Shown piece after piece: positions 18,558 to 64,000 of a stretch of 64,000 bases of DNA (position 1 is its first letter; the number at the start of each line of letters is the position of its first letter). The DNA comes from Owenia fusiformis. Taxonomy: Eukaryota > Annelida > Polychaeta > Sabellida > Oweniidae. Both the position numbers and the translations under genes were made by a program. The notes beneath the pieces were generated by a model. It saw only the letters and a list, made by a program, of their open reading frames with translations. It ran no database searches and was not told the DNA's origin. Location: the NCBI GenBank assembly GCA_903813345.2, contig CAIIXF020000008.1, positions 39,186,867-39,250,866 on the forward strand, given 5' to 3'.

Positions 18558-18707
18558 ATTTAAAGGACAATCACTGCTTGTTCATAAATATTTCAACAGT
18601 TTTGACATTATTGCAGCAAATAGTAAATTGTTAACAGCAGATGCATCTAAGCAACTTTTTAAGCACAAATCCTTCATTCACAATCCGGAAACTAAGCTCA
18701 GACAACC

Positions 18708-20630: not shown

Positions 20631-20859
20631 ATTCTCGTGCGAGTCCATGTAGACATACGAGGCACAAAGTGGCATTCAGTCAAATACCCAAATTTTTCTA
20701 GTTAGACGATTTGCTTTCGAACCATGGAGGCCTACTTTAATCTGTATATAATATCAACATTGAATATTAACAAAAACTTATAAATTCTTGGTAGAATACT
20801 GCATTCTTTGCATTTATTTGAAACATGTAGGAAATAATTGATACATTTGTAATAAATAA

Positions 20860-25737: not shown

Positions 25738-27659
25738 ATGGGCGATGGTATCAACAAAAAATTGACGATGAAAGTATTTTTAGTGATGTTCGCTTGTGCG
25801 TTTTTTATCAATGAATCGCATACTGTACACATTTCAATTAATCTTTCCAATGAGCAACAGAAAAATGTGACTTACAGAAAGTTCATTTGCACTGAAAGAT
25901 TGGACAGCGCATGGAAGTCGTTCAAAGTATTGAGTAATGCGAGATGCGCGGCGACTTGTAGTGCCAATCCAGAATCATGTAGTTCGTACAACTTGCGAAG
26001 AATTCAAGACAAAACATTCCGAGCAGTGTGCGAGCTGAATGGCCCAAGTACATCTTCACCGATACCTACCTCAAATGAAGTGGACTATTTTCAAAGAGCG
26101 GGTGAGACTATCATTCTCTTCTTGAAATCCTTCCAACTTTTTAAAAAATTAAGGTTTTATATACGCAATGAATAGTGTAACATATAATTTGGAGTTCATA
26201 TTTCTGGCCTGACCTTTTCGCTAATTTTGTGTTTTCTCGAAAATACGGTTTTATAATACTCAAATGGAATATTGTGTTTCTATCTCGCATGCACGAAATA
26301 TAGAGTAAGTAACGTGTGTCTCGTGGAAAATTTCAGTCAAACCTGGGCAGCCTGGAAAGCCTGTCACATCGGTGCACATGGATCAAGCTCATGTCACGTG
26401 GACGCCACCCCAAGATGATGGGGGCGCTGAGATCAACAATTTCAAACTTGAGATACGTCGTTCTGACGATTATAAATGGATGCCAGTGAACACGGAGGAA
26501 GAAATCCCCGGTAACAGTTTCTTGGTGAGAGGGCTTAAACGGGGAGTGATCTATGAAATACGTGTCAAGGCCGAGAACGAGCATGGCACTGGAGCACCAT
26601 CAATACCATCTGAATCCTTCAAGCACAGTTAGTATTTCAGTGTTATGCACTTATAGTGCTAGATTGTGATTGAACTTGAATGATGTGGATGGGGATATTA
26701 GACATTGTTTTTTCATGTTGGATTATGGTTTGGGATAGTTGTGGTTTGTTTTCCTCATGGCCCGCCTCATGACTGGTGTACACTTTGATGTTTATTTTTG
26801 GTTTGAAAGCAACAATTACTCACACTCGCGAATCTATGGTAGCTTTCGCCAGTCATAATTTATACGGGCGTGGATTTTTGATGTAGAAAGGAAGCGCGCA
26901 TAAATTATTTTCAGAGCTGCGAGCCCGAAAATACACTTGACAGATTCGTTTCCAAATATTTTCGTACTGACACTGTCTTTACTGTATGAGCCTATTCCTC
27001 AGCATGGATCAAAATATAATGATGTTTGGTATACTATGTGATTTAATTATTCTGTTTTAGCGATACCCGATTGTAACACAACCCTCCAAATGCCGTGTAA
27101 GGACGGCTGGTTGATATTCGAAAACTGGTACGATGGCTCGGTAGACTTCAACAAGGGATGGCATGAGTACATTAATGGATTTGGCGACATACACGGAGAA
27201 TACTTCTTGGGCTTTGAGAATATTCTAACAGTTCTGAAGCAGGGACAATACAAACTTCGCGTTGAACTCACCACTTGGCCAGCAGATGGAAGCGTCACAA
27301 AATATGCTGAATACGGCCAATTCAACATAGCAGGGGAGGACGATTATTTTAGACTGACCGCAACGGATTATTCTGGATCTCTTGGCAATAGCTTGAATTA
27401 TCATAATAACCGGCGATTCTCCACTTGGGATAAAGACAACGATGGAAAGGGCGATGGCAACTGCGCCATTTTAACGTCAGGGGCGTGGTGGTATTTCAAT
27501 TGTAAGGATTGTAATTTATTTGGATTGTACTCGAAGCCAGGTGTCTTAAGCGACGGCAGGTGCATGTATTGGAGCAAATGGGGAGAGGCAATGGTTGGAG
27601 ACCAACATACTTACACCTATTCATACAAAGAAATGAGAATGATGTTAAAGCCGATCTAA
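25738..27659 (+). CDS. Secreted PAN-FN3-fibrinogen-like protein, copy 2
   Basis: Exons 25738-26101, 26337-26627 and 27061-27659, with the same phases as copy 1; the alternative start with the signal peptide is at 25768. Domain order is signal peptide, PAN-like, one FN3, short fibrinogen C-terminal-like domain. The protein is nearly the same as copy 1. Differences include FENWYDG for FANRYDG, SKPG for STPG, TPI/SP changes in the Ser/Thr/Pro linker before the first junction, and a different end of the exon 1 read-through. Introns are also nearly identical apart from small indels, so the duplication is recent or the copies are being homogenised. AATAAA is at 27881. The frame is intact, so the gene is probably functional. 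Confidence 0.88.
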
Positions 27660-28656
27660 ATTCTCGTGCGAGTCCATGTAGACATACGAGGCACAAAGTG
27701 GCATTCAGTCAAATACCCAAATTTTTCTAGTTAGACGATTTACTTTCGAACCATTGAGGCCTACTTTAATCTGTATATAATATCAACATTGAATATTACA
27801 CAAAAACTTATAAATTCTTGGTAGAATACTGCATTCTTTGCATTTATTTGGAACATGTAGGAAATAATTGATACATTTGTAATAAATAAGTAGAGTTCGT
27901 ATACCATAGTAGAGGGCCTCAATTGCTGAAAAATAAACTAAAAATATCCATGTAAATATGTTGGTACTATACTTTCCTTGTATGTGACATGCTATTACAT
28001 TTTGAAAAAATAGAGAGATATTTTAGCACTTTATGATTATACCTTTAACATCGGGTATCTCAAAAAGTGAACTGCTTTTAAGACAATTATTTTCTCAGCA
28101 AGAGATTTACCAAATTCATTGAAAATTTGTAGCCATAGTAGCCTAATGGTACCATCAGCAAGTCTTATAAATAAAGGAGAGATGGGTTACATATTGTGCA
28201 CAGTTAAAACGCATGTCATGATATCAAATGTCAGTTGCTCAATGAGACCTTTATCATATTTTGCCAGCTGTCAGGTGTTGGCATCTGTCAATCAGATTCC
28301 GCTTTTTCAGGTGTTAGGTCTATTGATTTTTTTCATTGTTGTCTGTATGGAATGCAGTTCATCGAACATGCATTATTAAGAATGGGATAATTGAGTCATG
28401 GGAGACAATACCATTGGAAGAAATACACGAAAGCATTCTTGTATGGAAAACGGCTACAAAATAAATGCCAATTTTCCATTGATATTGCATGACATTTTGA
28501 CTGTTTTTAATTTGACAATTCTTGCATAAATTGTGACTGATCACTTGCCTATGGGTAGTCGGGAAACATTTTCAACGAATTCAGTTCATTGCTGAGAAAT
28601 ACTTGTCAAAAAGCATTTCGATTCATTTTGGACAAGCAATATTCGCAGTAAAGTTA

Positions 28657-32207: not shown

Positions 32208-32298
32208 TTGGTTAATAATGAATAAATATTAACTGTAAACCATTTTTCAGAAGACTGTATTTGTTAAACTTCCAGATGTTTCACAATGGTACAGTATT

Positions 32299-35200
32299 CT
32301 ATGGTTCGAAAACAGCAACTTCACACAGTGTGAGAGTGCGTTTAAACTTAAAAGATTGATGCTGTACTTTAACATAACGCCCATATAGACCATTTGGGCA
32401 TTTAAACATCCGCCAATCATCTCCACATGTCCCCAACATCCTCTTTTGATGATAACATAGTTCCCAAGTCACATTATCCTTACTCACTTCAATTTTGAAG
32501 TTTTGCAGTTGTTCTAAAATGGTATAACCACTTAATTATACTCAGTAGATTGATTATTATGAAAATAAAAAATATTAACAGGACTGGAACCAATATTCCT
32601 CCACACAGCTAGGAAGTTAAAGTTTACATACGATAATATCATTTCTGATTATAAGTGATTATTGTGAACTACATTATCGCTAACCATTTGATATATTTTC
32701 ATGAACGTTTATGAAGTTGAAGCACCCATTGAATCATGGTAAAATGTATGAACAAGTTAAATTACTCTCAGAAAAAACTTTCTTCGTAGCTTCAATACGT
32801 GTCCCTTTCAAAATAGATTTTTTTCATAAGTTGTTTTTACAATTATTTATGACACACCACCTTCTATGCGTATAGGGATACTGCCACAATGTTTACTGCC
32901 TCGGCATTGCCTATTAAACAGAGCCACGGACCCAATGGCATACTGAGAAAGTAAGTCGACCATCCACCATGGCTTCCTCTCACTTCTGGTTTGAATACAA
33001 GAGAGGTGTTCAATGTCGCCATCTACATTTCCATCAATTGCTGCGGCCGCAGATGTACTAATACTGTGATCAATTGATGATTGTGTTGCAACTTTATCAA
33101 GTGCAAGATTGTTCAATTCTATAACATTATAATAACATATGGCATAATAAGATAGGCAATTAGATATTTTCTTGTAGTTGTACAAGGGCCGATCAAAAAG
33201 TTTCTTACCGTTGGCTCTAGATTTTATAATAAGAGGAGTTGAATGCTCAAACTTTTACATAAGACAGGGTAGTAAGTTTGCCTGAGACTGTTTGAGTCTC
33301 ATTTAATTTGGTTCATTGGTAGTGACACAGGGTCAATACATATTTTCAATGATTGAATTGGGTGGAGCAGCGTTTTTTATAAAAAATTGTGCTAAGCTGC
33401 AGTTTTGGAAATTTCTAACACTAAGTAGTGTCATCTGTCAACAGACTGTAGTTTAATCAAGTTTAATTAGTTTTTCTGCTAATATTCATTCTCATTCAAA
33501 ATACTCCACCCCATTTGCAATGCACTTCCTAAATCGATCCACTCGATCCCAAAACACATGTTTAAGGCCTTCCTATGAGAGGTTTGAAACGATGTCGGTA
33601 AATTTCCAGAACCACAACTAGGCAGATATTTTATATATAACGCTGCTCCACCTAACTGTGTCATCGAATATATGCATTGACTCTGTGTCACTACCAATGA
33701 ACCAATGTATATAAAACTCGTACAGCTTCAAGCAAACTAACCATCCTGTCTCATGTTAAAGTTTGAGCTTCCAACTCCTCTTATTATAAAATTGAGAGCC
33801 AACGGTAAGAAACTTTTTGATCGGCCCTTGTATACTTGTATTATCAAGATTACTTACTTGATGGTTTAAAAACAGCAACTTCACATAGAGAGAGGTAATT
33901 CCAGTCTAGCAATTGAACCTTAACGTAGCGCCCCCTCAGTCCCCTAGGGCAGTAGAACATCTGGCAACCATTTTTACATGGTTCCAGTGTACTTCTGAAG
34001 TGAGTACATAACTCCCACCTTTTAGAGTCTTTGCTGACTTTTATTTTGAAATTCGAAAGTTCATCTATAACACAGACAAGAGAACTTTCAGTTGATTAAG
34101 TACTGTAAATAATATTTCTTTAGTTTGTAATTCACCACATAGTGTATTTTTAAATATTTGTTTCAGATTTTTCTTCAGCGCAATATCCATTGTAATGTCT
34201 TTGTACGGTTGACATTCTTTCCTGGTTTGAGGATGTTGTGGTAACTATCGCTTCTTTGTGTCTTTGATCGTAATTTGCGAATGTATGTTGTAATTTTGGC
34301 GCCCAAACTGTTCTGACATATTCATTTGAATCAGTTGGAATCTTTGATAACAAAAGTGCAACAAAGACCAAAGCGTTAAGGTATTATGTAGTTAAATAGG
34401 AATATCAAACATGTCATGAGAAAATTACCTTCAACTTTAGGAGAACCTGGGGCACTGTCACAATTCTCTTCACCACATTGTCTGTTTATAAGCTTCACAG
34501 ATCCAATGGGATAGACATCCTGCAAGTCAACCATCCACCAAATGTCACTTGTCTGCGAAGTATGCGTGCATGAGCCATGGTAGTATTCGCCATCCTCTAC
34601 ACCATCGACAGCAAGACCAGCATTCAATGTCGTGGATTTTGATTGCGAGGCAGGCTTTCCAAGCGCCAAATTCTGAATTTCTAAATAACACATGCAATTT
34701 CTATACTTTACCCTCTCCTATTTTGATAATTCTAGTTTCCATGACTGCCTTTCTCATAACAAGACACTTTAGTTATATTCCTATTTTGTCTCTGAACGAT
34801 TTTTCAAGATACATGGACAGCGCTCATCCCATTTTCAAAACGCAATTTAATAGACACTGCCATTTATGGTTGCTAATATGACTTCAAAAGAGCACGTAAG
34901 GTATGGCAAGCCATTTTCAAAGGGCTATATCTTTAGTTCGAAGAATAAGTTAACCACAAAATCAAATGGTTCTGTTAGATCCATGTCTTATCTTCAATAA
35001 ATGACATAAGGATGATAATCAAGTTGATTGAATTATCTCTTAAGCTGTCCCTAATCCACCCATCCTCACCAATTTTCCCTAATTCAGATGCAATTTTCAC
35101 CAAAAAGTGCAGGTCTTTTTAATAATTTTTAGTGCAAAGTTGTATTGAACTTTAAGACATGATTTAAACTGTAAAGGGGAAAAGTTAATTGTAAACCTAC

Positions 35201-41445: not shown

Positions 41446-44126
41446 TCATGGTTCGAAAACAGCAACTTCACAAAGTGTGAGAATGCGTGGATAGTTGAAA
41501 TGGTGCTGTACTCTTACATAACGCCCATATAAGCCATGTGGACATTTAAACATCCGCCAATCATGCCCACATGTTCCCAAAGTACTTTTCTGATGATAGC
41601 AAAGATCCCAAGTCACATTGTCCCGACTCAATTCAATTTTGAAGTTTTGGAGTCGTTCTAAAAATATTTTTAGCACTTTTGAATTAAAACGGATAAAAAT
41701 ATGAAAGCAAGGAAGAATAACTCGTCGGAAACCTTCTTCAACACTTTTACAAAATATGCCGACCTAAGATTGTGATGAATAAAATATAATTATGGACATT
41801 ACTGGATAGCAACTGGGACGTAGACGGGTAATTTTAAATTAAATAAAACTAATAAGCTCTTAGTTCATGAGTTCAATCGTGCAATAATGCAAACGAGATA
41901 ATACCTTCAAGATGACGTTTGCCACAATTCTTAATGCCCCGACATTGCCTATTAAACACTGCCACAGACCCAATGGCATACTGAGAAAGTAAGTCGACCA
42001 TCCACCATGGCTTTCTCTCACTGGTTTGAATACAAGATAGGTGTTCAACGTCGCCATCTACATTGCCATCAATGGCCGCGGCTGCATTTGTACTAATGTT
42101 TTGATGAATTGATGATTGTGTTGCAACTTTATCAAGTGCAAGATTGTTTAATTCTGTAACATTATGAGACCAAAATGACATTATGGGATTGGAATTTGGT
42201 TATTTTCTCAGATTTTAGACAAATGGGTCTCATTGTTCACCATTAGAAATCCCCGAATGCTTGTATTTTCAGGATGTGGCGATGTGTCTCGTATATGTCA
42301 TATATTTTATTCATAAAGAAATGACTTACTTGATGGTCGAAAAACAGCAACTTCACAGAGTGAGAGAAAGTTCATTTCTTGCAACTGAACCTTGACGTAG
42401 CGCCCTTTCAATCCACTTGGACAGTAAAACATCTGACAGCCTTTTTTACAAGGTTCCATTGTACTTCTGAAGTAAGTACAAAGCTCCCACTTTATAGAAT
42501 CCTTGCTGACTTTGATTTTGAAATTTGAAAGATGATCTGGAAAATGACACAAAAGAACTGTTATTGACATTTTAATATCAAAAGCATTGTTATATCTGTT
42601 ACTTTATGGTTGAGGCAGGTGTTAGGCATGGCTCCCCTGTGCATTAGATCATAGTTTGGAGTATCTGTGGTATGTAACCCTTCATGATTAGATGTGCTCT
42701 TTAATGTGTCTTTTTCTTCTTTGGTTTTGCTGCTTAGCAGCTGTGGTTAGATATTCATCTGAAACCAGTTTTGCGAATAAAAATTGCAACGTGGATAGCC
42801 TTGAACACAAGCTCAATGGAGGTTTGGGTTTTCAAATTTCAGTGAAAAGTACCTTCTACATCATACGTAGCGTATTGAGGACTTCTACAATTGCTTTCGC
42901 CACATTTCCTGTTTATCAGCTTGACCGATCCAATGGGATAAATATCCTGCAAGTCAACCATCCACCAATTGCTGCTAGTCATATGAGTGTGCGAACATGA
43001 GCCATGGTAGTATTCGCCATCCTCTACACCATCGACAGCAAGACCAGCATTCAATGTCGTGGATTTTGATTGCGAGGCAGGTTTTCCGAGCGCCAAATTT
43101 TCAATATCTAAATAAGACGTGCAATTACCCAAAGGACCTTATACACCCTCCATTGGGATCTCCCCATGGGAAAAAAATTCATCTGATTTTTCAAAATGAG
43201 TTTTCTGCTTCAATTATTACATTTATATGCACACTAGTATCTTGTTGACCTATATTCAGCACTGTATTGATGTATAGGCCACTTATTAGGGTCAAAATTC
43301 AATCATGAAGTGTAGAGGCATAGATTCCAAACCAGGAAGTATTTTTGTGTCAAAATCCATTTGCATCCTACGCATCCCTGCATCTTATCCAAATATGTTA
43401 CTACATAATGAAATACAATAGTATAATCTTTGGTTTTACAAACTTGTATGATATTTGATAAGTGTAAAAGTTGTTTTTGGAGCATTTTTCTATAGCCATT
43501 TTGTAGGGAAAAAAATGATGAAAAAATGTACAATCTTTTAATTTTAAGTATGACCTGAATCGATTGCAAACTTCATATTTGCACATTTGATAAGATAAAC
43601 CATTTGTGTCATATTGTGAAATTATTAAGTTTGCAATCGATTCAGGTCATAGTGTATTTTTGGTATTTCTGTGATAATCAATGGAAACCAATGGCCTCTA
43701 TTGGGATCTGCTGATATCCTCATGTTAAGTCAATGGTGCACAGCCCCATGTAAGTCAATACAACCTTACTGAACGAAATGATCCCTATCTCAGCTTATGT
43801 GTGCCCGAGCACTTTAATATTTTCCAAAGTATTATATGACATTTTATTCTTCATGTTACACCTAAGAATGATTCATTTTGATCATAGGGATATTTGCCAA
43901 TAACCCTCTTCCTTTACTCATAAATCCCAAGTATAAGTAGTTTAGCTTTAGTATGTAATGAACTCTGCAGACACTGTCCCAATTCGTTTTAATATAAACT
44001 ATAAAAATAACTCCCAATAGTCTAACAATTTTACATTAACTATTTGTACTGTGAATTAGTACATACCCTTCTCCTTCCATACAGTGCCCTTACACCATGG
44101 TTTATCTGCTAAACAAGACGGCACGC
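41446..44126 (-). CDS. Tandem F-type lectin (fucolectin) domain protein B, 5' end not found
   Basis: Exons on the minus strand: 44126-44067 (60 nt; CLADKPWCKGTVWKEK), 43107-42853, 42536-42330, 42153-41905 and 41657-41446. All are phase 1, and the last ends in TGA. It has the same two-domain, two-exons-per-domain plan as gene A. Domain 1 shows NLALGKPASQS, GSCSHT, WWMVDL; domain 2 shows VATQSSIHQNI, AAAAIDGNVDGD, LSCIQT, KPWWMVDL, NRQC. Both second halves end with GRYV(K/R)VQ and LCEVAVF. As in gene A, the R-x-D-x4-R/K fucose-binding signature is altered. TTTATT on the plus strand at 41171 could be the poly-A signal. No signal-peptide exon was found upstream before 46000, so cellular location is inferred only from the family, whose members are secreted. 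Confidence 0.85.
43550..43650. repeat. Perfect 24-bp inverted repeat
   Basis: ATGACCTGAATCGATTGCAA plus CTT at 43550-43573 is exactly mirrored at 43627-43650, with a 53-bp loop. It sits upstream of lectin gene B domain 1, in its presumed intron, and may be the tips of a small decayed element. Confidence 0.7.
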
Positions 44127-46050
44127 CTAAAATATAAAGATTGGACTATAACATTATACCTCTTCTAACAAGCCGATGGTACAAATGAAATTGGTGATGA
44201 GAATCCAAAAATGCTAAAACAGAAAACTTCATTCAATTTTGAGTTGATTTTCAAATTATTTCAAGATGATTGCAAGGATTCGTCTATTAAGATTTTCTTC
44301 TTAAGAGATCTAATAAGTCAAATGAGTAAGTGACTTACATAAAGCCATGAGCAATAAAGAAAACCTCTGCAATAAATAACAAAACCTCTGCACCCCTATT
44401 GTGAATTCTGCCATGTATATTTTATGTTCAGATGTGTCCTCGCTACAAAACATACAACAGCAATACACCACGTTTCTAATACATGGGCAGCGTAATATGT
44501 TTAGTACCTTCTTTTCTTTATGAAAATGGGCTCTGATATATCATTAACTGCGTTTTATTACTGTAGCCTGGCCGTTGGTAGACCAGTCGGTGGAAAATAA
44601 TATAACATAAAAAATGTAAAGGCACAATGTTCACCATGTGAAGGTAAATTCTTCACCATTAAGGCATAATGTCCATACACATTCATAGATCTCAGACATC
44701 AAAGATCAGGGTTAGTGTTGGATATATATTGTGTGGTGAGATTTTCTCTAAGATGCGATTTCCTAGTGGTCCCCAAAAGGTGGAATTTTACATTAGATGA
44801 TTTGAAAAGATTTCAACTTTTATTTATTTTGATCGGATCACTGGTGCAGGTCTCCAAATCGGGGAACGCAAGGACAAATCATTTGGAATAATCTACCTTT
44901 GTATTTAAAAATAGCCCTTCTCTGAGTATTTTTAAATCAAGACTAAAAAACTTCCTGATCAGCAAAATTCCAAATAATCATTAATTAAGGGCATGGTACA
45001 CATTGATTTTTATTCTTCCTTATATGTTAACTCATCATATTAATATCCTCAGTAGATGTCATTGTGTTATACATTATACAATATCTCTAGTATCAGTTTG
45101 GTGTCCCCGTTGCTCCCGCTCCAAATAAGTTGCTCATACTCTCTTTCGTATAAATTAAAGGTACTATTTCATATTCATACATTTTTAATTGTAAACTCAG
45201 TAAATACACATAAACATGTGTCTATTATTAAAATCTTTATCATTGTGTAATCGAATCAATTTGAAATAAAGAAATAAAAAATCTTGAGTTTGATCTTTAA
45301 GTTTCTGTTCGATGTCTGCAGTTATGGCTGTATATTCGTTAGAATATGGACAATGCAGTTACTTGTATTATAGATTCCTAGAGTTTAGATTTGAGAAGAC
45401 TAGATTCACTGGTCGAAATAAATAATTTATCATTATATTCACGGATATCGTTTTCAGAGATTTTATCAATTTCCATGTTTTGAGTTGAGTTACGGTATGG
45501 TACGCTGTAACATTTGACACAGGGGTACGCTGTAATATTTGACAAAGGGGATACGAAAATGGCCCAAAACATGCCGATAAAAAGGTGATTGTATTGTACT
45601 ATCAAACTGATATAATTATGCATAAAACAATTATACTTACATTTTGTGCATACAAGTTGTTACTTGCCTATGTTATCTTTATTATTATAAGCACACCTGC
45701 AGTTAATTCCAGTCAGCCCATGTTTCTCTTAATACATTGCTATTCGAACCTAACCACAGAACATAAAAATATTTACTGCATAGGTTATTTGATTACTTTG
45801 CTATTTGCACATGGTTTGTATGGTAAAACTACCTACGTCCACTTATAACGTTTAATATTTCATTAAAACCACTCAATATAAAAATATGTAATTAATTAGG
45901 CTTTCATAAAGAACATGCTTATGGCGAATAAACGAATACACTTTAAATTTCCGTATATTAATTCTGATGCGTGCAGTTAAAGAAAACCGACACCGCACAC
46001 TTGAAACTACTCATGACAATATATCAGACTCAAATGTGACATTACCAATA
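44127..46050. other. Between lectin gene B and the satellite, no gene confirmed
   Basis: 44870-44960 contains a degenerate WNNLPLYLKIA-like reading followed by frame-shifted remains, resembling the C-terminal tail of LINE reverse transcriptases; probably a 3' remnant. A 26-bp direct duplication ('gtacgctgtaa') lies at 45500-45550. Several small open frames are listed as rejected. Confidence 0.4.
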
Positions 46051-49000
46051 ATCTTCATTTCACCATATCGTCGACACTCCTTCTGCAGCAGCAATTGACG
46101 GTCATATGGACGGCGATGCTTTTCATTTGTCAAGAATACATACTGCTGTCAAACAATCTTCAGTGCACCATATCGTCGACACCTCTCTTCAGCAGCAATT
46201 GATGGTAATATAGACGGCGATGCTTTACATTCGTCCTGCATACATACTGCTGCCAAGCAATCTTCATTTCACCATATCGTCGACACTCCTGCAGAGGCAG
46301 CAATTTATGGTAATATAGACAGTGATGCTTTACATTCGTCCTGCATACATACTGCTGCCAATCAATCTTGATTTTACCATATCGTCGACACTCCTGCAGC
46401 AGCAGCAATTGATGGCAACATAGACGGCGATGCTTTACATTCGTCCTGCATACATACTGCTGCCAATCAATCTTGATTTTACCATATCGTCGACACTCCT
46501 GCAGCAGCAGCAGCAATTGATGGCAACATAGACGGCGATGCTTTACATTCGTCCTGCATGCATACTGCTGCCAAACAATCTTCATTTCACCATATCGTTG
46601 ACACTCCTGCAGCAGCAGCAATTGATGGTAATATAGACAGTGATGCTTTACATTCGTCCTGCATGCATACTGCTGCCAAGCAATCTTCATTTCACCATAT
46701 CGTCGACACTCCTGCAGCAGCAGCAGCAATTGATGGCAACATAGACGGCGATGCTTTACATTCGTCCTGCATACATACTGCTGCCAAGCAATCTTCATTG
46801 CACCATATTGCTTACACTCCTTCTGCAGCAGCAATTAACGGTAAAATAGACAGTGATGCTTTACATTCGTCCTGCATACATACTGCTGCCAAACAATCTT
46901 CATTTCACCATATCGTCGACACTCCTGCAGCGGCAGCAATTGATGGTAATATAGACGGCGATGCTTTACATTCGTCCTGCATACATACTGCTGCCAAGCA
47001 ATCTTCATTGCACCATATTGCTTACACTCCTTCTGCAGCAGCAATTGACGGTAAAATAGACAGTGATGCTTTACATTCGTCCTGCATACATACTACTGCC
47101 AAACAATCTTCATTTCACCATATCGTTGACACTCCTGCAGCGGCAGCAATTGATGGTAATATAGACAGTGATGCTTTACATTCGTCTTGCATAAATACTA
47201 CTGCAAAGCACTATTCATTACACCATATCGTCGACACCTCTATGCAGCAGCAATTGATGTAATATAGTCAGAGATGCTCTTTAATTGTCCTGCATACATA
47301 CTGCTGCCAATCAATCTTCATTTTACCATATCGTCGACACTCCTGCAGCAGCAACAGCAATTGACGGTAATATAGACGGCGATGCTTTACACTCGTCCTG
47401 CATACATACTGCTGCCAATCAATCTTGATTTTACCATATCGTCGACACTCCTGCAGCAGCAGCAGCAATTGATGGTAATATAGACGGCGATGCTTTACAT
47501 TCGTCCTGCATACATACTGCTGCCAAGCAATCTTCATTTCACCATATCGTCGACACTCCTTCTGCAGCAGCAATTGATGGTAATATAGACAGTGATGCTT
47601 TACATTCGTCCTGCATACATACTGCTGCCAAACAATCTTCATTTTACCATATCTTTGACACTCCTGCAGCGGCAGCAATTGATGGTAATATAGACAGTGA
47701 TGCTTTACATTCGTCTTGCATAAATACTACTGCAAAGCACTATTCATTACACCATATCGTCGACACCTCTATGCAGCAGCAATTGATGTAATATAGTCAG
47801 AGATGCTCTTTAATTGTCCTGCATACATACTGCTGCCAATCAATCTTCATTTTACCATATCGTCGACACTCCTGCAGCAGCAACAGCAATTGACGGTAAT
47901 ATAGACGGCGATGCTTTACACTCGTCCTGCATACATACTGCTGCCAATCAATCTTGATTTTACCATATCGTCGACACTCCTGCAGCAGCAGCAGCAATTG
48001 ATGGTAATATAGACGGCGATGCTTTACATTCGTCCTGCATACATACTGCTGCCAAGCAATCTTCATTTCACCATATCGTCGACACTCCTTCTGCAGCAGC
48101 AATTGATGGTAATATAGACAGTGATGCTTTACATTCGTCCTGCATACATACTGCTGCCAAACAATCTTCATTTTACCATATCTTTGACACTCCTGCAGCG
48201 GCAGCAATTGATGGTAATATAGACAGTGATGCTTTACATTCGTCTTGCATAAATACTACTGCAAAGCACTATTCATTACACCATATCGTCGACACCTCTA
48301 TGCAGCAGCAATTGATGTGATATAGTCAGTGATGCTCTCTAATTGTCCTGCATACATACTGCTGCCAATCAATCTTCATTTTACCATATCGTCGACACTC
48401 CTGCAGCAGCAACAGCAATTGACGGTAATATAGACGGCGATGCTTTACAATCGTCCTGCATACATACTGCTGCCAATCAATCTTGATTTTACCATATCGT
48501 CGACACTCCTGCAGCAGCAGCAGCAATTGATGGTAATATAGACGGCGATGCTTTACATTCGTCCTGCATACATACTGCTGCCAAGCAATCTTCATTTCAC
48601 CATATCGTCGACACTCCTTCTGCAGCAGCAATTAATGGTAATATAGACAGCGATGCTTTACATTCGTCCTGCATACATACTGCTGCCAATCAATCTTCAT
48701 TTCACCATATCGTCGACACTCCTTCTGCAGCAGCAATTGATGGTAATATAGACAGTGATGCTTTACACTCGTCCTGCATACATACTGCTGCCAATCAATC
48801 TTCATTTCACCATATCGTCGACACTCCTTCTGCAGCAGCAATTGATGGTAATATAGACAGTGATGCTTTACATTCGTCCTGCATGCATACTGCTGCCAAA
48901 CAATCTTCATTTCACCATATTGTCGACACTCTTTCTGCAGCAGCAATTGACGGTAATATAGACAGTGATGCTTTACATTCGTCCTGCATGCATACTGCTG

Positions 49001-52000
49001 CAAAACAATCTTCATTTCACCATATCGTCGACACTCCTTCTGCAGCAGCAATTGATGGCAACATAGACGGCGATGCTTTACATTTGTCAAGAATACATAC
49101 TGCTGCCAAACAATCTTCATTTCACCATATTGTCGACACTCCTTCTACAGCAGCAATTGACGGTAATATAGACAGTGATGCTTTACATTCGTCCTGCATG
49201 CATACTGCTGCAAAACAATCTTCATTTCACCATATCGTCGACACTCCTTCTGCAGCAGCAATTGATGGCAACATAGACGGCGATGCTTTACATTCGTCCT
49301 GCATACATACTGCTGCCAAACAATCTTCATTTCACCATATCGTCGACACTCCTTCTGCAGCAGCAATTGACGGTAATATGGACGGCGATGCTTTACATCC
49401 GTCCTGCATACATACTGCTGCCAAACAATCTTCATTTCACCATATCGTTGACACCTCTCTTCAGCAGCAATTGATGGTAATATAGACGGCGATGCTTTAC
49501 ATTCGTACTGCATACATACTGCTGCCAAACAATCTTCATTTCACCATATCGTTGACACCTCTCTTCAGCAGCAATTGATGGTAATATAGACGGCGATGCT
49601 TTACATTCGTACTGCATACATACTGCTGCCAAACAATCTTCATTTCGCCATATCGTTGACACTCCTTCTGCAGCAGCAATTGACGGTAATATAGACAGTG
49701 ATGCTTTACATTCGTCCTGCATGCATACTGCTGCAAAACAATCTTCATTTCACCATATCGTGGACACTCCTTCTGCAGCAACAATTGACGGTCATATGGA
49801 CGGCGATGCTTTACACTCGTCCTGCATACATACTGCTGCCAAACAATCTTCATTTCACCATATCGTCGACACTCCTTCTGCAGCAGCAATTGACGGTAAT
49901 ATGGACGGCGATGCTTTACATCCGTCCTGCATACATACTGCTGCCAAACAATCTTCATTTCACCATATCGTTGACACCTCTCTTCAGCAGCAATTGATGG
50001 TAATATAGACGGCGATGCTTTACATTCGTACTGCATACATACTGCTGCCAAACAATCTTCATTTCACCATATCGTTGACACCTCTCTTCAGCAGCAATTG
50101 ATGGTAATATAGACGGCGATGCTTTACATTCGTACTGCATACATACTGCTGCCAAACAATCTTCATTTCGCCATATCGTTGACACTCCTTCTGCAGCAGC
50201 AATTGACGGTAATATAGACAGTGATGCTTTACATTCGTACTGCATACATACTGCTGCCAAGCAATCTTCATTTCACCATATCGTTGACACTCCTTCTGCA
50301 GCAGCAATTGATGGTAATATAGACAGTGATGCTTTACATTCGTCCTGCATGCATACTGCTGCCAAACAATCTTCATTTCACCATATTGTCGACACTCCTT
50401 CTGCAGCAGCAATTGACGGTAATATAGACAGTGATGCTTTACATTCGTCCTGCATGCATACTGCTGCAAAACAATCTTCATTTCACCATATCGTGGACAC
50501 TCCTTCTGCAGCAACAATTGACGGTCATATGGACGGCGATGCTTTACACTCGTCCTGCATACATACTGCTGCCAAACAATCGTCATTTCTCCATATCGTT
50601 GACACCTCTCTTCAGCAGCAATTGACGGTCATATGGACGGCGTTGCTTTTCATTTGACCTGCATACAAACTGCTGCCAAACAATCTTCATTTCACCATAT
50701 CGTCGACACTCCTTCTGCAGCAACAATTGACGGTCATATGGACGGCGATGCTTTACACTCGTCCTGCATACATACTGCTGCCAAACAATCGTCATTTCTC
50801 CATATCGTTGACACCTCTCTTCAGCAGCAATTGACGGTCATATGGACGGCGTTGCTTTTCATTTGTCAAGAATACATACTGCTGCCAAACAATCTTCATT
50901 TCACCATATTGTCGACACTCCTTCTGCAGCAGCAATTGACGGTAATATAGACAGTGGTGCTTTACATTCGTCCTGCATACATACTGCTGCCAAACAATCT
51001 TCATTTCACCATATCGTTGACACTCCTGCAGCAGCAGCAATTGATGGTAATATAGACGGCGATGCTTTACATTCGTCCTGTCTGCATACTGCTGCCAAAC
51101 AATCTTCATTTCACAATATCGTGGACACTCCTTCTGCAGCAACAATTGACGGTCATATGGACGGCGATGCTTTACACTCGTCCTGCATACATACTGCTGC
51201 CAAACAATCGTCATTTCTCCATATCGTTGACACCTCTCTTCAGCAGCAATTGACGGTAATATGGACGGCGTTGCTTTTCATTTGACCTGCATACAAACTG
51301 CTGCCAAACAATCTTCATTTCACCATATCGTCGACACTCCTTCTGCAGCAACAATTGACGGTCATATGGACGGCGATGCTTTACACTCGTCCTGCATACA
51401 TACTGCTGCCAAACAATCGTCATTTCTCCATATCGTTGACACCTCTCTTCAGCAGCAATTGACGGTCATATGGACGGCGTTGCTTTTCATTTGTCAAGAA
51501 TACATACTGCTGCCAAACAATCTTCATTTCACCATATTGTCGACACCTCTCTTCAGCAGCAATTGATGGTAATATAGACGGCGATGCTTTACATTCGTCC
51601 TGCATACATACTGCTGCCAAGCAATCTTCATTTCACCATATCGTCGACACTCCTGCAGAGGCAGCAATTGACGGTAATATAGACAGTGGTGCTTTACATT
51701 CGTCCTGCATACATACTGCTGCCAAACAATCTTCATTTCACCATATTGCTTACACTCCTTCTGCAGCAGCAATTGACGGTAATATAGACAGTGATGCTTT
51801 ACATTCGTCCTGCATGCATACTGCTGCCAAGCAATCTTCATTGCACCATATTGCTTACACTCCTTCTGCAGCAGCAATTGACGGTAATATAGACAGTGAT
51901 GCTTTACATTCGTCCTGCATGCATACTGCTGCCAAGCAATCTTCATTGCACCATATTGCTTACACTCCTTCTGCAGCAGCAATTGACGGTAATATAGACA

Positions 52001-53705
52001 GTGGTGCTTTACACTCGTCCTGCATACATACTGCTGCCAAACAATCTTCATTTCACCATATTGCTTACACTCCTTCTGCAGCAGCAATTGACGGTAATAT
52101 AGACAGTGATGCTTTACATTCGTCCTGCATGCATACTGCTGCCAAACAATCTTCATTTCACCATATTGCTTACACTCCTTCTGCAGCAGCAATTGACGGT
52201 AATATAGACAGTGATGCTTTACATTCGTCCTGCATGCATACTGCTGCCAAACAATCTTCATTTCACCATATTGCTTACACTCCTTCTGCAGCAGCAATTG
52301 ACGGTAATATAGACAGTGATGCTTTACATTCGTCCTGCATACATACTGCTGCCAAACAATCTTCATTTCACCATATCGTTGACACTCCTGCAGAGGCAGC
52401 AATTTATGGTAATATAGACAGTGATGCTTTACATTCGTCCGGCATGCATACTGCTGCCAAACAATCTTCATTTCACCATATCGTTGACACTCCTGCAGAG
52501 GCAGCAATTTATGGTAATATAGACAGTGATACTTTACATTCGTCCTGCATGCATACTGCTGCCAAACAATCTTCATTTCACCATATCGTTGACACTCCTG
52601 CAGAGGCAGCAATTGATGGTAATATAGACAGTGATGCTTTACATTCGTCCTGCATGCATACTGCTGCCAAACAATCTTCATTTCACCATATCGTTGACAC
52701 TCCTGCAGAGGCAGCAATTGATGGCAATATAGACGGCGATGCTTTACATTCGTCCTGCATGCATACTGCTGCCAAGCAATCTTCATTTCACCATATCGTT
52801 TACACTCCTGCAGCTGCAGCAATTGGCGGTAATATAGACAGTGATGCTTTACATTCGTCCTGCATGCATACTGCTGCCAAACAATCTTCATTTCGCCATA
52901 TCGTTGACACTCCTTCCGCAGCAGGAATTGACGGTAATATAGACAGTGATGCTTTACATTCGTCCTGCATGCATACTGCTGCCAAAAAATCTTCATTTCA
53001 CCATATTGCTTACACTCCTTCTGCAGCAGCAATTGACGGTAATATAGACAGTGATGCTTTACATTCGTCCTGCATACATACTGCTGCCAAACAATCTTCA
53101 TTTCACCATATTGTCGACACTCCTTCTGCAGCAGCAATTGACGGTAATATAGACAGTGATGCTTTACATTCGTCCTGCATACATACTGCTGCCAAACAAT
53201 CTTCATTTCACCATATCGTTTACACTCCTGCAGCTGCAGCAATTGATGGTAATATAGACAGTGATGCTTTAAATTCGTCCTGCATAGATACTGCTGCCAA
53301 ACAATCTTCATTTCACCATATCGTCGACACTCCTTCTGCAGCAGCAATTGACGGTAATATAGACAGTGATGCTTTACATTCGTCCTGTCTGCATACTGCT
53401 GCCAAACAATCTTCATTTCACCATATCGTCGACACTCCTGCAGCAGCAATTGGTGGCAATATAGACAGTGATGCTTTACATTCGTCCTGCATGCATACTG
53501 CTGCCAAACAATCTTCATTTCACCATATCGTTGACACTCCTGCAGAGGCAGCAATTGATGGTAATATAGACAGTGATGCTTTACATTCGTCCTGCATGCA
53601 TACTGCTGCCAAGCAATCTTCATTTCACCATATCGTTGACACTCCTGCAGCAGCAGCAATTGACGGTAATATAGACAGTGGTACTTTTCATTCGTCCTCT
53701 TTTTG
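46051..53705 (+). repeat. 105-bp satellite derived from an F-type-lectin half-domain, about 73 units
   Basis: The basic period is exactly 105 bp (35 codons), with some 104-bp and other indel variants. Translated on the plus strand, each unit gives QSSFHHI, then AAAIDGNIDSDALHSSC and HTAAK. This is co-linear with VATQSSIHQNI...AAAAIDGNVDGD...LSCIQT of lectin gene B (41905-42153), 19 of 35 residues by my hand alignment. The frame is open without stops from 51814 to 53706 (630 codons) but broken in many units to the left by TGA or length changes. Higher-order repeats occur: 529 bp (boundaries 47241, 47770, 48299), about 523 bp (49457/49980) and about 628 bp (50592/51220). No signal peptide, splice-linked remainder of the domain or poly-A signal was identified, so it is annotated as a repeat and not as a gene. 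Confidence 0.93.
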
Positions 53706-56700
53706 AGGCCCAATGGAATTACCCAAATGCGAGGAGGTAGTTACCAGTTTCACCACCAGGTGGCTGATTCGGGTCAATTAACATGGCAGGTATATAAGAA
53801 AGTTCCCTTAAACTTGAATATTATCAATTTAAGTGGCTCAATTTTCATATAACCCTTATGCGTCTGATACTTATACTAATGAAAATATGTCCAGTAAAGC
53901 AAAATGTTATCTGTCCACTAAAAGAAAAGATACTAGTATTTCATTTTTGTGATTTTATAGCATGGGGTCTATGAGAAATCTCCCCGAGCTAGAAGTCACA
54001 TTTTCAAAGAAAATTAATTTTTCAAAGTTGATAAACACTTTTTAAAACCATATTTCTAGATGTAATTTTACCTGTAGATTTCAAATATGATATTACTTTG
54101 ACTGAATTTTGAATTTTTAATGACGTAAAGTAAGATTATTTCTACTCGCATCTGGGTTATTCGCCATTTCATGTGCTGCCAAGTACCTGAACTGTCTCCC
54201 CTTGTCAAATTCAACTCATATTTGTTCACTCAGAGCAGATGTGTTCATTGTGTGCAAGGTTACCTGTCTTTGGTGGATTGTTTTTGTGGATTAACACATG
54301 ACATATTGACCGAAGGTTGCGATAAGTCTTTTTCGTTCAGGAATAATTATATTGCTCACATTTGCAGCAAGGATTTGGAACAAGTCTCTCTTTTTTACTC
54401 CAAGCACAATCAATCTTGCCAGTTTCTAGGTAGGGACTTTTCAGTATAAATATGCCTCCTTTTACTGTTTCCTTTCTTATTTCTTATACCAAACTCTAAC
54501 CTGTTACATGTAGTTTCATAACTGTCCAAAACAATATCTAGATGGTATGATTTCGTTCATGTCATGAGCCTTGTTGTTTTAGCAACTGTGAAGTTCCCCT
54601 TAATGAATTCAACAAGCACTGATCGGTGTGTTGCGTTAAATTGGTTCATGTCACGGATATGAACTGCTAACCATCTTGAATAGTTGGTGTGATTGAGTAT
54701 AAAAAGGCATGGCAACAACTCAGAAAGGTTATCTTTGTATAGGCTGAAGTTGCCCTCTTTAAAGTTTAAGATCCATTACCATCCACCAGAACTTAAATTG
54801 GGAAGAGCCATTCAGCTGGGACTGTTTTTTTACCCAGTCACCCAACTCAAACTCAAACTCAAAGGTTATTCATCAAGATCACAACACAAACAATGTGTCA
54901 CACAGGCGTTTTTGTCAAGAATATAAAAACTACAAGCAGTAGTTTGATGTGCTCTGCAAGTAAGTGCGAGATGGTTAACTTTGATAAAGAAATCAGCTGC
55001 ATCAGATGTGGCTATGCCAGCTTGAGAGAGGGAGATTGTCCATCCAGGGTTCTCTCATAGATTGCCCAAGATATGAAATGCTCCCATTTCAGTGTGCATT
55101 CCACCAAGTATTCTTATCAGCTTCGTTTTTTCTTCTCTAGCCATTGTCCACTATTACTGCTTGAACAGTGCAAAGAGGGACTGTTCGGCAGCAAGTACAG
55201 GTGTTTGGTCTGGTTATACACATCAACATGAGAGACAATGAATATTAGACTATAAACTGACTTCAATATAACTAAAATGAAGAAAATTGTAACATTGTTC
55301 TGTTAGAGAGTACAGAGTGTCAGAGTGCAGAAACACTCAGAAAATCAAGATGGGTGACATTCCTCAATATATATACCAACAAACCTTATCCCCACTTACA
55401 TGCCCACTCCCTCCCCCGCCTTCATATATCTCTCAATTTTACTTTCTACAACGTACATGTTGTTGAATTTAGAAACACTAACATTTTTATTCCAGATAAC
55501 AGTTACTTAAGAATAAGCAAATTGGGTCAGCATGAATAAAATAATAATTATTAATTTATGTTTCAGAGCAGTTTAATGCATATACCTATAGGTGGGGCTG
55601 CATAACACTCTTCTTTATTGGTAATAATGAAATATTTTGATATATACATGTTGAATGTTATCGTTAAGCATTGATAAAAATATAAACTTGTCAAATTTGA
55701 TTGAAAAGAAGTAGTGAATAAGGGAATTGTTTCTTATTTTGACGTTAATTTTGGTATAATTTTAACAATTTATGTCTAACAACAAAACAATCAATTAGAA
55801 ACAAGAAAATATGAATATATTTAATTCTGCATACAAATATATACAATCAACTATTAATTGGCTTTATTCCCTATGCCTCAAAAGAATGTTCATTGAAAAA
55901 TGATAGCGAAGTCACCGTTGTGACGCAATTGCGTATATGCAGAAGTCATTAAGTGGTATTAACTTAGGAGACAATCGGTGCTAGAGTTGAGACCATTAGC
56001 GGGGTCCTCCAGCCAGCTCTGCGGAACTGTGGCCCTGCGGGACAGTGATTGTCGGGAAACAGCCCAAGTAAACCTAATTCACTTTCAAACAATCAAGACG
56101 GTAAACCGTAGAGTGTACCTGTCTTATCAGCTAGATAAGTCGCGTTGCGAACATGATTGTTTGAAATTGGAGACAATTATGTACATAGAAAGCGATATAT
56201 ATTTACATAATTGAATACTATGAACTGGTTTATCTTGGAGCAGCTGCACTATCATTAAAATGTAATGAATTGCAGTTGGGGAAGAATGAGTTGAAACGAA
56301 TAATTGCCAAACCATGTGCGAAGCAGATATTTCACTGTGAAAAGTGAAATGAGTGAAGCATATGGGAAAAGATGGCGCTATAAAAGCAATTTCTTATGTT
56401 TATACTTAATAAAAAACCTATTTGGTGGGAATATTATTAAATAATATCTGGAGACATTAATTTATCACATTTTATTGAAATAAAGGCAGTAAAAAAATTA
56501 TCAAAAAAGAGAATGAATATGGTATTTGGAATGAAAGAAAAGAATTACTCAGACATCACTCGGCTCCCATTGAACGCAGTGAAGACCGAGCACGCGAAGA
56601 TGATAGCTCGTACAAATACTATAGAGGTCTCATATCAGAAATCCGGTATGGGGATTTTTGACATTCTCTTTTGAATCTCTTAGCTTTCACAGAATATTTA

Positions 56701-60211: not shown

Positions 60212-62789
60212 ATGGCGTTTCTGGCGTTGTATCTCCCTACCGTTGTCATGGTAGCGGGAGTTGTCCTAATGACTTTTCACGTTGAAGCTTTATACAAGGA
60301 CTCCCTCACGCCAGAACTGTTGCTGATGAAATATTTAATGACAGACTACAACGCCAATGTACGTCCGGTGAAAAACACATCTGAAGCCACCGTGGTTACC
60401 ATAGACATTGCATTGACTCAAATAGCGGACGTGGTAGGTTCATCTAGTTTCAATTATTTTTTCCTGTGCTTCTAGCTGTCATAACTTCAAATACATGATT
60501 TTATCCCATTCGCACCAAAGCGGATCGTGGTATTATTAACACAAATGCAACCCATTTGGTAATGAGAATTCATATATAATTACATTTTGTCAACAATATT
60601 GAGAATAAATATAACTATTGATATATATCATGAAGGCTTGTCAAATCAAATGAGGGTTGTTCCCCAAGTTTTAAGTCTGTTAATTCATTTCTACCTCTGT
60701 AATGCATAAACAATTCGTTATGGGTATTAGGACAAAGAAAAGCCAAGTGCCAATAGCTTGCCAAGTGTCCATTCTTTAAAAAAGGATGTACTTTACTTTT
60801 GATACAACCATACATTCTTCAAAATAAACTACAACTCATTATATTATGTTGCTACCTAAGTAGGGTTTAGGCTTTTAATCCGTTGTATTCGATATGCAAT
60901 TGTATGCATCCTCTCTCATATGGAATATTAAAGCTATTATTAATGAATTATTAATTGGATATTGTCCTAATAAATAAACGATTAACTACGGGTATAATGT
61001 TTCATATAGAAAACTACAAATGAGTGAAAAGTGAAAAAGTAAAGTCACCCTTTAAGCAGGTGTACGCCGGTGAACATCTTGACATTTTTAGAAATACAAT
61101 GTGGACATCCGATCAGAGTTCTTGAAGATATAGCGATAAGCAAACGTGTGTGACAGTGTATGCATACCGTTTTGGTTTAGTACATGTAGTGTGTGAAATA
61201 ATGATGATGATGATAGACAAATCGTCGAGTCCATTAACTTATTAAATAATGCAATCATTCGTTATTCTAATTTTCTCATCTTTGTAAATGGTTTTCAGAG
61301 CGAGAAACATCAAACAATTACGACATCAGTATGGCTTAGATTCGTAAGTATATTCATAAAAGCCAAAAGGTTTGCCAGATTTCAACGGTTGGAGAGAAAG
61401 CGCAAGATGGATAAAATGGGGAAAGGGTGGATTTATTTTGACAAACTTTTGGTCTCCAATGTGCCATTAGGGATTAAGATATATGTAAATCTTTTGAAAT
61501 CTCATTTTAACGAACTGGACGAAAGTGTTCGTTCGGAGCATTCGTTAAGTAGCTTACAGGCTTAGGACATCTATACATTACATGGAAGATTCTCTACATG
61601 CACATCCACGACCAATGCAAAAAGACCTGACACACATGATTAGAAATACATGATAGACTACACTACACAAGATCTTGTCAAAATAAGTTTCCTAAAAAGT
61701 GGTATTCCTGGTTATACTAGACATTTATTTTATTCTACGTTCAATTGTCTCATAAAATATGCTTACTCGTACTTATTCATTTTCACAAAACGAATGATTC
61801 TTTTTAGACATGGGAGGACTATTTTCTAAAGTGGAATGAATCTGACTATGGAGGTGTGAAAACAATTCATCTAAAGCCAGCAGATGTTTGGATCCCAGAT
61901 ATCACCTTATACACGGAGTAAGTTAATCGCATATGTCACCTTATACACAGAGTAAGTTTATCGCATATGTCACCTTATACACAGAGTAGGTTAATCGCAT
62001 ATGTCACCTTATACACAGAGTAAGTTAATCGTATATGTCACCTTATACACAGAGTAAGTTAATATCATATCTCACCTTATACACAGAGTAAGTTGATCGC
62101 ATATGTCACCTTATACACAGAGTAAGTTAATCTCATATGTCACCTTATACACAGAGTAAGTTAATCGCATATGTCACCTTATGCACACGAAACACAAAAA
62201 AATGAAACGTACACATTGGCTTTTACTAGTATAGTATAATCTGCTTTCTATAGCGTTACAGGTCAGTACTATGAGACTAAGGAATTCCGACTAAAAGTGA
62301 CGAGTGACGGAACAGTTCAGTGGAAAATTCCGACGAAGTTTGTCAGTTCATGCAAGATGAAAGTCCACAACTTCCCCTACGACGTCCAGACATGTACGCT
62401 TAAGTTTGGATCGTGGGGTTTTGGAAGTACAGAAATAGATCTACAGAATAAGTCAGACTCTGCTGATCTGTCTGCATATGAACCAAGCGGAGAATGGGAA
62501 TTACTGTCCACTGACGCTATACGGCATTCTTTAATGTACAACTGTTGTACGGAACCTTACATTGACGTAACATACTACATCAACATTAAACGGAAGCCTC
62601 TCTATTACACATTCAACGTGATCTTGCCATGTATGTTCATAGTGATCATCTCGCCATTTTCGTTTCTCGTGCCCCCGGGATGTGGCGAAAGGATACAATT
62701 AAGCACAACGTTGTTTTTATCTCTCACAGTTTATATGCTGTTTGTTGCCGAACAACTTCCAGTTCAGTCTGAGGATGTACCTTTAGTAG
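60212..62789 (+). CDS. Alpha-type nicotinic-receptor-like Cys-loop channel subunit, 3' end outside window
   Basis: Exons 60212-60433 (signal peptide and N-terminus), 61299-61343 (45 nt), 61808-61917 and 62254-62789; the frame is consistent and the last donor is GTGAGC. This family forms pentameric ligand-gated ion channels in the plasma membrane. Visible features: hydrophobic N-terminus; VWLRF; WIPDITLYTE (loop A); Cys-loop with 13 residues between its cysteines (FPYDVQTC); GSWGFGS (loop B); a vicinal Cys pair, YNCCTEPYIDVTYY (loop C), the mark of alpha subunits; then M1 and M2. M2 has GERIQ, a conserved 9' Leu and an outer Glu, which points to a cation pore. The coding ends at VPLVG before M3; M3, the cytoplasmic loop and M4 must lie beyond, after an intron that reaches the window end. 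FPYD replaces the more common FPFD. Confidence 0.92.
61896..62186 (+). repeat. 35-bp tandem repeat seeded by an exon end and its donor
   Basis: The end of the exon closing at 61917 (CACCTTATACACGGA/GTAAGT) is followed by about seven further 35-bp copies, CACCTTATACACAGA/GTAAGTT plus 'aatcgcatatgt', and a final partial copy. Nearly all keep a full GTAAGT donor (one reads GTAGGT). Confidence 0.93.
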
Positions 62790-64000
62790 GTGAGCAAAAT
62801 ATTACATACATGTACGTGAGTCATATCTTAGAACGTAAAAGTAGTGTAAAAATGTATAGTTCAATTCTTAATACTACTCATAAGTACGGTAAGCCTTTGG
62901 ATGAGTTTTCTTCATCCTAGGCAAGTCTGGAAAAGAGTTATATCTGGATTAATGCAGAAGTAGATAAAATATATGATGATTTAGTCTCAACGATATTTGT
63001 GTTCATTATTGACACACTTCTACCTACTTGCTTGAACGAAATTCGTATGGTCCTACATATAGTCCCTGATCTGGTACCTCAAAAAAGGTTTCGTTGCCGT
63101 ATTGTGTATCGTTTGATTGATCAGACTTCCCTCATAGAGAAAACACCTCTTATATTGATAGAAACAGGGGCAAAGGCACTAAAATGGGATCAGACAAGGT
63201 GGCATTCTGAAGTCTCACTTTATTGTCATCGCTATTTCAGGAAAACCAAACGGATTTACTTCAAATTTTCACACATGTTACATATTAAAAAGTTCTAGAG
63301 CTGATTAACTTTCCGAAGGCCATCTTGCATTTTGGCAGCCATCTTGGAAGTTTTAAGATAAATCTTGTCATCGCGATTCCAGGAACACCACTTAACGATT
63401 TTTCTTCAATTTTTTACACATGTTACAAATGGCTTTTTGGCGGCCATCTTGGAAGTTTTTATGTCCCCACCACATAGTGTGGGGCCATATTGTCGGCCTA
63501 GGCGCGTCCGTCTGTCCGTCTTTCTGTCCGTCCGTACGTCCGGCAGTTTTCTCCAAAACCGCTACAGATATCACCTTCAAATTTTCAGGGATAACTTATG
63601 AGTGCATACAGATGTGGATGAAAAGAATTAACTCGATACCTACTTCATGTCGGCCATTTTGAAGTCAAATGCTAAAATCCTTGTCTGCAAACTTTAAGAA
63701 AAACGGCTTCACAGTTGCTTTTAAAACTTTAACATCTTGTTCAGCTCACTTCATTCTAGATCTGATTAGGTTTTGGACCTGTTAGCTCAGTCATGTCAGC
63801 CATTTGAATGTTTTAAGAAAAGTTAGCGCACGATAATACTTTGTATCATATTGAATGGTGTTTTTCAGTTTTCATACTTTAACTATTTAGTAGCTTTATA
63901 AATAATTTCAGGTGTACTTTGTTGTAAAAGCCTATTATTGTTAAAAGTAGTTATATGTGATACATGTAATTTTGTAAAAAGAAATCAGCAAAAACTCATG
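62790..64000. other. Receptor intron or downstream sequence with dispersed repeats
   Basis: No M3 exon was found. 63300-63460 has degenerate duplicate words ('ggccatcttggaagtttt', 'acacatgttaca'). Confidence 0.5.
63457..63620. repeat. Dispersed 'ATGTCCCC...GTCCGTC' repeat, second copy
   Basis: TTTTATGTCCCCACCACATAG, with hairpin partner 'tgtgggg', is followed by 'ccatattgt', runs of GTCCGTCTGTCC, then 'ctccaaaaccgctacagata'. It has the same word order as 5595-5700. Confidence 0.75.

Follow-up and report, generated by a model that had tools for sequence, protein, structure and literature searches.

A tandem array of 105-bp units derived from the interior of an F-type lectin exon in Owenia fusiformis

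Tandem arrays that derive from genes are already known as a kind. Stellate/Su(Ste) of Drosophila, where Su(Ste) acts on Stellate, and the D4Z4/RS447 macrosatellites are such repeats, and the repeats of antifreeze glycoproteins grew from a small segment of a trypsinogen gene. The origin of many tandem repeats is untraceable. Here we describe a tandem array of a 105-bp unit derived from a lectin exon in the annelid Owenia fusiformis, which we file as a traceable case of the start of an array. It occupies positions 46050-53698 on the plus strand of the window, that is, of the whole stretch of 64,000 nucleotides that was analysed (C8:39186867-39250866, where C8 is contig CAIIXF020000008.1; genome of 498 Mb in 525 contigs). 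Like Stellate/Su(Ste), the antifreeze glycoprotein repeats and D4Z4/RS447, this locus has a gene or gene piece as the unit of a long tandem array. However, those systems encode or regulate a product, whereas the unit described here, a piece from inside an exon, gives no clear indication of any product.

The closest case within the protein family is oyster sperm bindin, in which one to five F-type lectin domains occur in tandem in polymorphic number (PMC5712786). The likeness lies in tandem amplification inside an F-type lectin gene. The bindin repeats are expressed and comprise entire domains with introns, whereas the Owenia array consists of an exon-internal fragment without introns and without a conserved frame. 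Among the records listed in a literature search, titles and abstract starts revealed no account of a lectin-exon-derived satellite; one may nevertheless exist in print. On the evidence presented below, the array is very probably a single-locus, non-coding tandem repeat, a minisatellite in kind but of satellite-like length, that was founded once by an internal fragment of a lectin exon and varies in copy number.

Tandem Repeats Finder reported the array as head-to-tail with a period of 105, 72.8 copies and 90% matches. Cutting it into units by alignment to a tandem reference gave 72 full units and a last, partial one that is 20 bases short, in agreement with the approximately 73 copies of the original prediction. 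Distinct sequences account for 59 of the 73 units, and the mean pairwise identity among units is 0.893. The GC content, taken in steps of 2 kb, is 42-44% in the array as against 29-40% in the rest of the window. The reading of the unit is QSSFHHIVDTPSAAAIDGNIDSDALHSSCIHTAAK. A second copy of the array is present on another contig, C235, and the edges of the two copies correspond: the right edge (53696-53720, plus strand), CCTCTTTTTGAGGCCCAATGGAATT, is identical in both, while the left edge (46019-46049, plus strand), ATATATCAGACTCAAATGTGA(C/T)ATTACCAA(T/C), differs at two bases. Beyond these edges no remainder of a lectin exon was detected above shuffled controls on either side of either copy (16 comparisons, lowest P 0.07).

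A DNA search of the genome with the unit, of a type that can miss places, returned two places, namely the array in the window and C235:78013-79555. With this limit of the search in mind, the array was rejected as the core of a dispersed element, and neither the high abundance nor the many loci of a classical satellite were found. What the locus does share with ordinary minisatellites and single-locus satellite DNA are similar units arranged head to tail, duplications of blocks of units, and a copy number that differs between copies of the locus. It differs from ordinary minisatellites in that its origin from a protein-coding exon can be recognised and that relatives of the source exon are still present in the genome.

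Judged from its sequence, the lectin origin of the array is real. The translation of a single unit gave four matches in PDB at E≤10, all of which are F-type lectins, with eel agglutinin (1k12) as the best (E=0.0066); Pfam and NCBIfam searches of the single unit yielded no family. The unit aligns in frame to positions 25-54 of the 158-residue chain of 1k12 and thus corresponds to about a quarter of an F-type lectin domain rather than to the half-domain that had been proposed. In local alignments at the DNA level the unit scored up to 55 against the fetched lectin exons and 28 against those of the window, whereas the best scores of 500 codon-shuffled units over the identical exon set averaged 12.6 and never exceeded 20. 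The proposed origin of the array in an F-type lectin coding exon thus held in the structure database as well as in the codon-shuffle control.

The aligned part includes the cation motif AIDGN and the residues that line up with Ser49, Cys50 and His52 of 1k12. Roles of Ser49 and His52 in the eel lectin are described in PMC5712786, which names His52 as the sugar-binding histidine and places the arginines of the sugar site at positions 79 and 86. Both arginines fall outside the stretch aligned with the unit, and neither a whole jellyroll nor a complete sugar site (His, two Arg and the cation motif) is present in it. Compared with F-type lectin genes such as those for eel agglutinin and striped bass FBP32 (3cqo), the array is homologous and in frame in its unit, but consists of a quarter domain repeated 73 times, with the frame broken in places and with the sugar-site arginines and the remaining jellyroll absent. 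The view that AIDGN and the cysteine are kept in nearly all units could be retained at most for the cysteine on C8. Read on the alignment, the cysteine is present in 67 of 73 units on C8 and 9 of 15 on C235, AIDGN in 52 of 73 and 8 of 15, and the histidine that aligns with position 52 in 66 of 73 and 11 of 15. At such divergence, the retention of AIDGN and the cysteine can be explained by descent alone.

Two F-type lectin genes lie on the minus strand of the window. Gene B (41446-43138) encodes two F-type lectin domains of two exons each; its open stretches are 42839-43138, 42307-42603, 41873-42199 and 41446-41763, with approximate exon borders, and its unit-homologous stretch is 42023-42124. 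In PDB the exon of gene B matches FBP32 (3cqo) at E=1.6e-19 and eel agglutinin (1k12) at E=6.8e-10; in Pfam it matches PF22633. Gene A, a paralog of gene B, lies at 32297-34717, with the unit-homologous stretch at 32988-33089. Over this stretch genes B and A read ATQSSIHQNISTNAAAAIDGNVDGDVEHLSCIQT and ATQSSIDHSISTSAAAAIDGNVDGDIEHLSCIQT, respectively. At the protein level the unit is identical to the exon of each gene at 20 of 34 residues (tblastn E=3.6e-10), and at the DNA level at 65 of 102 nucleotides. The array runs in the orientation opposite to genes A and B, and the gap to the nearest open stretch of gene B, which reaches 43138, is 2.9 kb, more than the 2 kb that had been stated.

The search for closer relatives of the unit was based on 39 fetched lectin-exon matches (L007-L045), excluding near-duplicate and weaker rows and, throughout, the truncated L040; L016 was absent from the tree and from the first exon comparison but was included in the final comparison of 44 exons. 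When the unit consensus was aligned over 105 columns, the best exons were L034 (82 identities; C235:308213-308428), L027 (81; C8:37355026), L028 (81; C481:54375) and L030 (81; C338:15968), all of the type NLALGKPA(K/T)QSSNHPWSGTTAAAAVDGNIDGDTVHFSCIHT, as compared with 65 of 102 for genes A and B. Among the 72 distinct units of both array copies, L034 was the sole best of the 44 exons for 66. The other six were tied between L034 and either L032 or L028 and L030, all of which belong to this PAK/PAT group. Every one of the 72 units scored 11 to 29 points higher with an exon of the PAK/PAT group than with the exons of the window, and among the matches listed by a later search with the L034 peptide there was no closer group. 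Two details of the units also fit this type of exon: their AAKQSS corresponds to PAKQSS in L034, and their SCIHT stands in place of the SCIQT of genes A and B. Aligned with its source, the unit shows an extra and a missing base at a distance of six columns, so that a few codons there are frame-shifted; this may be a matter of chance in a divergent stretch.

A maximum likelihood tree of 115 rows (72 units and 43 exons) over 105 columns placed the units in one group with a support of 93/97 (not starred), which fits a single founding. Constraining the units and the window exons to form a clade cost 41.6 log units and was rejected in the approximately unbiased (AU) test (p-AU 0.014), whereas a clade of the units with the PAK/PAT group cost 0.8 log units and was compatible with the data (p-AU 0.48). 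Of the proposed derivation from the nearby lectin exon, the in-frame homology is upheld, but genes A and B are rejected as the source both by identity and by the AU test. The identity values show that the source of the unit lies in or near the PAKQSS/PATQSS...SCIHT group of lectins, as an approximate placement.

Another candidate source was a plus-strand lectin pseudogene exon at C235:88399-88603, about 9 kb to the right of the C235 array. It has an exact run of 23 bp with one unit, and the same AAIDGNID codons. As the source it was nevertheless rejected, as it groups with another lectin clade (84/75) and aligns at 56 of 76 positions; a role as partner of the unit would be possible but is not favoured. 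The surrounding gene (L046, C235:87841-89200) is a decayed plus-strand lectin gene with a stop and a frame shift in the exon, and it is located within about 10 kb that are present in C235 but absent from the matching site on C8.

Exact runs shared between units and exons also bear on two possible functions of the array. One proposal was that the array stores sequence variants for gene conversion into lectin exons. This would suit the large variation among the units (59 of 73 distinct in C8), and lectins of the oyster bindin are described in PMC5712786 as diversifying through recombination. However, exact runs within the unit-homologous stretch do not exceed 17 bp for any intact exon, and for the pseudogene exon, which carries the same AAIDGNID codons, they reach 23 bp; runs with genes A and B reach 12-14 bp. 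No gene-conversion tracts were seen in this exact-run comparison of the 72 distinct units with the intact exons, and the tree separates the units, as one group, from the exons. A variant store hence appears hardly credible. By analogy with the action of Su(Ste) on Stellate, the array might instead be a source of antisense or small RNAs that regulate the lectin family, a role for which its orientation opposite to genes A and B and its distance of 2.9 kb from gene B would be suitable. Against this, the longest exact run measures 17 bp for L034 and 12-14 bp for genes A and B, and the identity to genes A and B is 65 of 102. Given how Argonaute/Piwi proteins recognise their targets, small RNAs of 20-30 nt would hardly pair with these genes, and we judge this role very unlikely.

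How the array has changed in length can be seen from its internal structure and from the second copy. Lag analysis revealed three multi-unit duplications on the plus strand: units 11-16 are repeated at 16-21 with a period of five units (529 bp; 47104-48266), units 32-34 at 37-39 with a period of five units (523 bp; 49321-50156), and units 43-46 at 49-52 with a period of six units (628 bp; 50472-51517). The duplicated blocks, at lags 5 and 6, are at least 98% identical and have identical indels. This block structure would be the trace expected from unequal exchange or from slippage over several units, either one. The C235 array comprises 15 units within the same edges as the 73 units of C8 (a two-base alignment remnant was dropped). 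The two units at its start most closely resemble units 1 and 2 of C8 (0.962 and 0.971), but its last unit is nearest to unit 54 of C8, not to unit 73. The block structure and the difference in unit number between the copies (73 and 15) point to growth and shrinkage of the array through duplication and loss of units and blocks. Blocks of 523-628 bp with at least 98% identity are also where copy number can be miscounted, and the length of the array, or the array itself, might come from mis-assembly. Yet the two contigs carry the same edges with different unit sequences and different lengths, which makes an assembly artefact most unlikely.

The flanks of the C235 array are mostly about 95% identical to the window (pieces of 90 to 98%). 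The match is collinear from the lectin genes to the array and from the array to about 55.7 kb, and it resumes from C235:92037. Near the array, C235 has about 0.83 kb extra on the left and lacks about 0.44 kb on the right; elsewhere it lacks about 0.8 kb upstream of gene B and about 5.3 kb between genes A and B, and has about 10 kb extra at 81.9-92.0 kb. On the basis of this collinearity, C235 would be the other haplotype. The missing piece on the right, window positions 53721-54158 (about 440 bp), corresponds to a junction at C235:79570 with a short shared ATT.

The original prediction also considered a gene for a repeat protein. In its present form this would mean that approximately the last 20 units constitute an exon of a secreted protein with 35-residue lectin-derived repeats, while the left part has decayed. 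Indeed, the longest open stretch in sense orientation, 747 codons at 51463-53706 on the plus strand, covers about these 20 units. However, an antisense open stretch of 738 codons (51524-53740) overlaps it, and among 4000 shuffled units, when repeated, 52% had at least one stop-free frame and 9% at least one on each strand. The length of an open stretch is therefore no evidence by itself, and we judge the 747-codon stretch to be a by-product of a stop-free unit with a period divisible by 3. It terminates in the degenerate array edge. Pfam detected in the 746-residue stretch solely Peptidase_M9, below the cut-off (22.7 of 26 bits) and with no single stretch passing, which is taken as a chance match. 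A continuous frame that is kept in both copies was not observed: among the 73 units of C8, 13 are frameshifted and 6 have an in-frame stop (in one case as the first codon at the left edge), so that 54 are intact, and the 15 of C235 comprise 5 frameshifted and 10 intact units and no unit with a stop, with the truncated last unit of each copy scored as intact. A quarter jellyroll, moreover, would not be expected to fold as a lectin.

Selection on the units was assessed from unique substitutions in the sense frame, and the four results given here come from 24 frame-by-set tests without correction. In C8, the synonymous changes match the neutral expectation (20 observed versus 18.8 expected, P 0.40). 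Several other observations weigh against a non-coding array that was founded once. The 15 units of C235 show 20 synonymous changes where 14.7 are expected (P 0.026; 0.04 in another run). The last 20 units of C8 are unbroken and have a slight excess (12 versus 8.4, P 0.08), as have all 88 units together (27 versus 22.4, P 0.09). It should further be noted that the non-coding status, while most likely, is read from DNA rather than from RNA, that the placement of the units as sister to the PAK/PAT group is compatible with a tree of 105 columns in which the support for the unit group is not starred, and that C235 is regarded as the other haplotype from its collinearity, with a recent segmental duplicate as a less likely alternative. 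For the units, the substitutions suggest no clear constraint, although a weak hint remains. We consider a repeat-protein gene decidedly improbable. Slightly slimmer still is the chance that the intact block on the right, about 20 units long, is expressed and yields a novel secreted repeat protein derived from a quarter lectin domain. If this were true, amplification of an exon fragment would here be giving rise to a gene; the frameshifted units on the left would be its unselected remainder, and its length would differ between chromosome copies.

The non-coding array most likely arose as follows. A piece of about 105 bp, taken from the central part of an exon for the second domain of an F-type lectin, would have been tandemly duplicated beside the lectin genes. 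This founding fragment would have run from (P/A)A(K/T)QSS as far as SCIHT and contained both the cation motif AIDGN and the Cys/His pair, and would have come from, or from near, the PAKQSS/PATQSS...SCIHT lectins and not from the adjacent genes A and B. Later growth and shrinkage would have proceeded by duplication or loss of single units and of blocks of 5-6 units, via unequal exchange or replication slippage. Such an array would yield no protein clearly kept by selection, and a function would be unnecessary to explain it. Of the three options that had been put forward, a dead by-product thus fits best, but the suggested link to a duplication process at exon edges finds no support here: the unit is internal to the exon and contains no splice site.

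Three short tandem arrays elsewhere in the window, at 332-526 (65 bp, 3 copies), 5932-6374 (149 bp, 3 copies) and 10221-10716 (131 bp, 3.8 copies), with 96-99% matches, seemingly span exon edges with splice-site-like borders, unlike the exon-internal 105-bp unit. The 149-bp array lies in a glycerol-3-phosphate-acyltransferase-like gene (GPAT_C), which the 65-bp and 131-bp arrays, judged from their units alone, may share. A 34-bp array of about 8 copies (61902-62187) matches about 2.5 kb in C235 (L048, 96.6-99.1 kb) and is adjoined by a neurotransmitter-gated channel gene (62240-62917). The window also contains two gene copies of 96% identity with FN3 and fibrinogen C-terminal domains at 18647-21610 and 25677-28656 (FN3 from the first copy). 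Contig C8 ends 13 kb beyond the window, and its final 600 bases are without telomere repeats.

With respect to the lectin genes, an intron of gene B was considered as the site of the array and set aside. A rough search for starts that resemble signal peptides produced two weak candidates to the left of the array (45623 and 45243) and none to the right, so that the 5' end of gene B would be placed only tentatively. The match between the window and a segment paralogous to gene B (C8:37372000-37374887) extends as far as 45824 and stops about 225 bp short of the array; the genome DNA search with the unit, which can miss places, detected no array in that segment. A large cluster with several types of F-type lectin exons is found at C8:37318402-37372347 and C235:308213-394279. 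It is about 1.9 Mb from the window locus on C8 and about 230 kb from it on C235, and this difference points to a rearrangement, or else a mis-join, close to the C8 end.

The array in O. fusiformis is a satellite-like array whose birth from a coding exon is open to study. Members of the source family persist in the genome, the founding fragment can be compared with them base by base, and the copies with 73 and 15 units within the same edges show an array that grows or shrinks. At the same time, a caution follows for arrays of this sort: long open frames and conserved-looking motifs within them can stem from their origin and from a period of 3 x 35.

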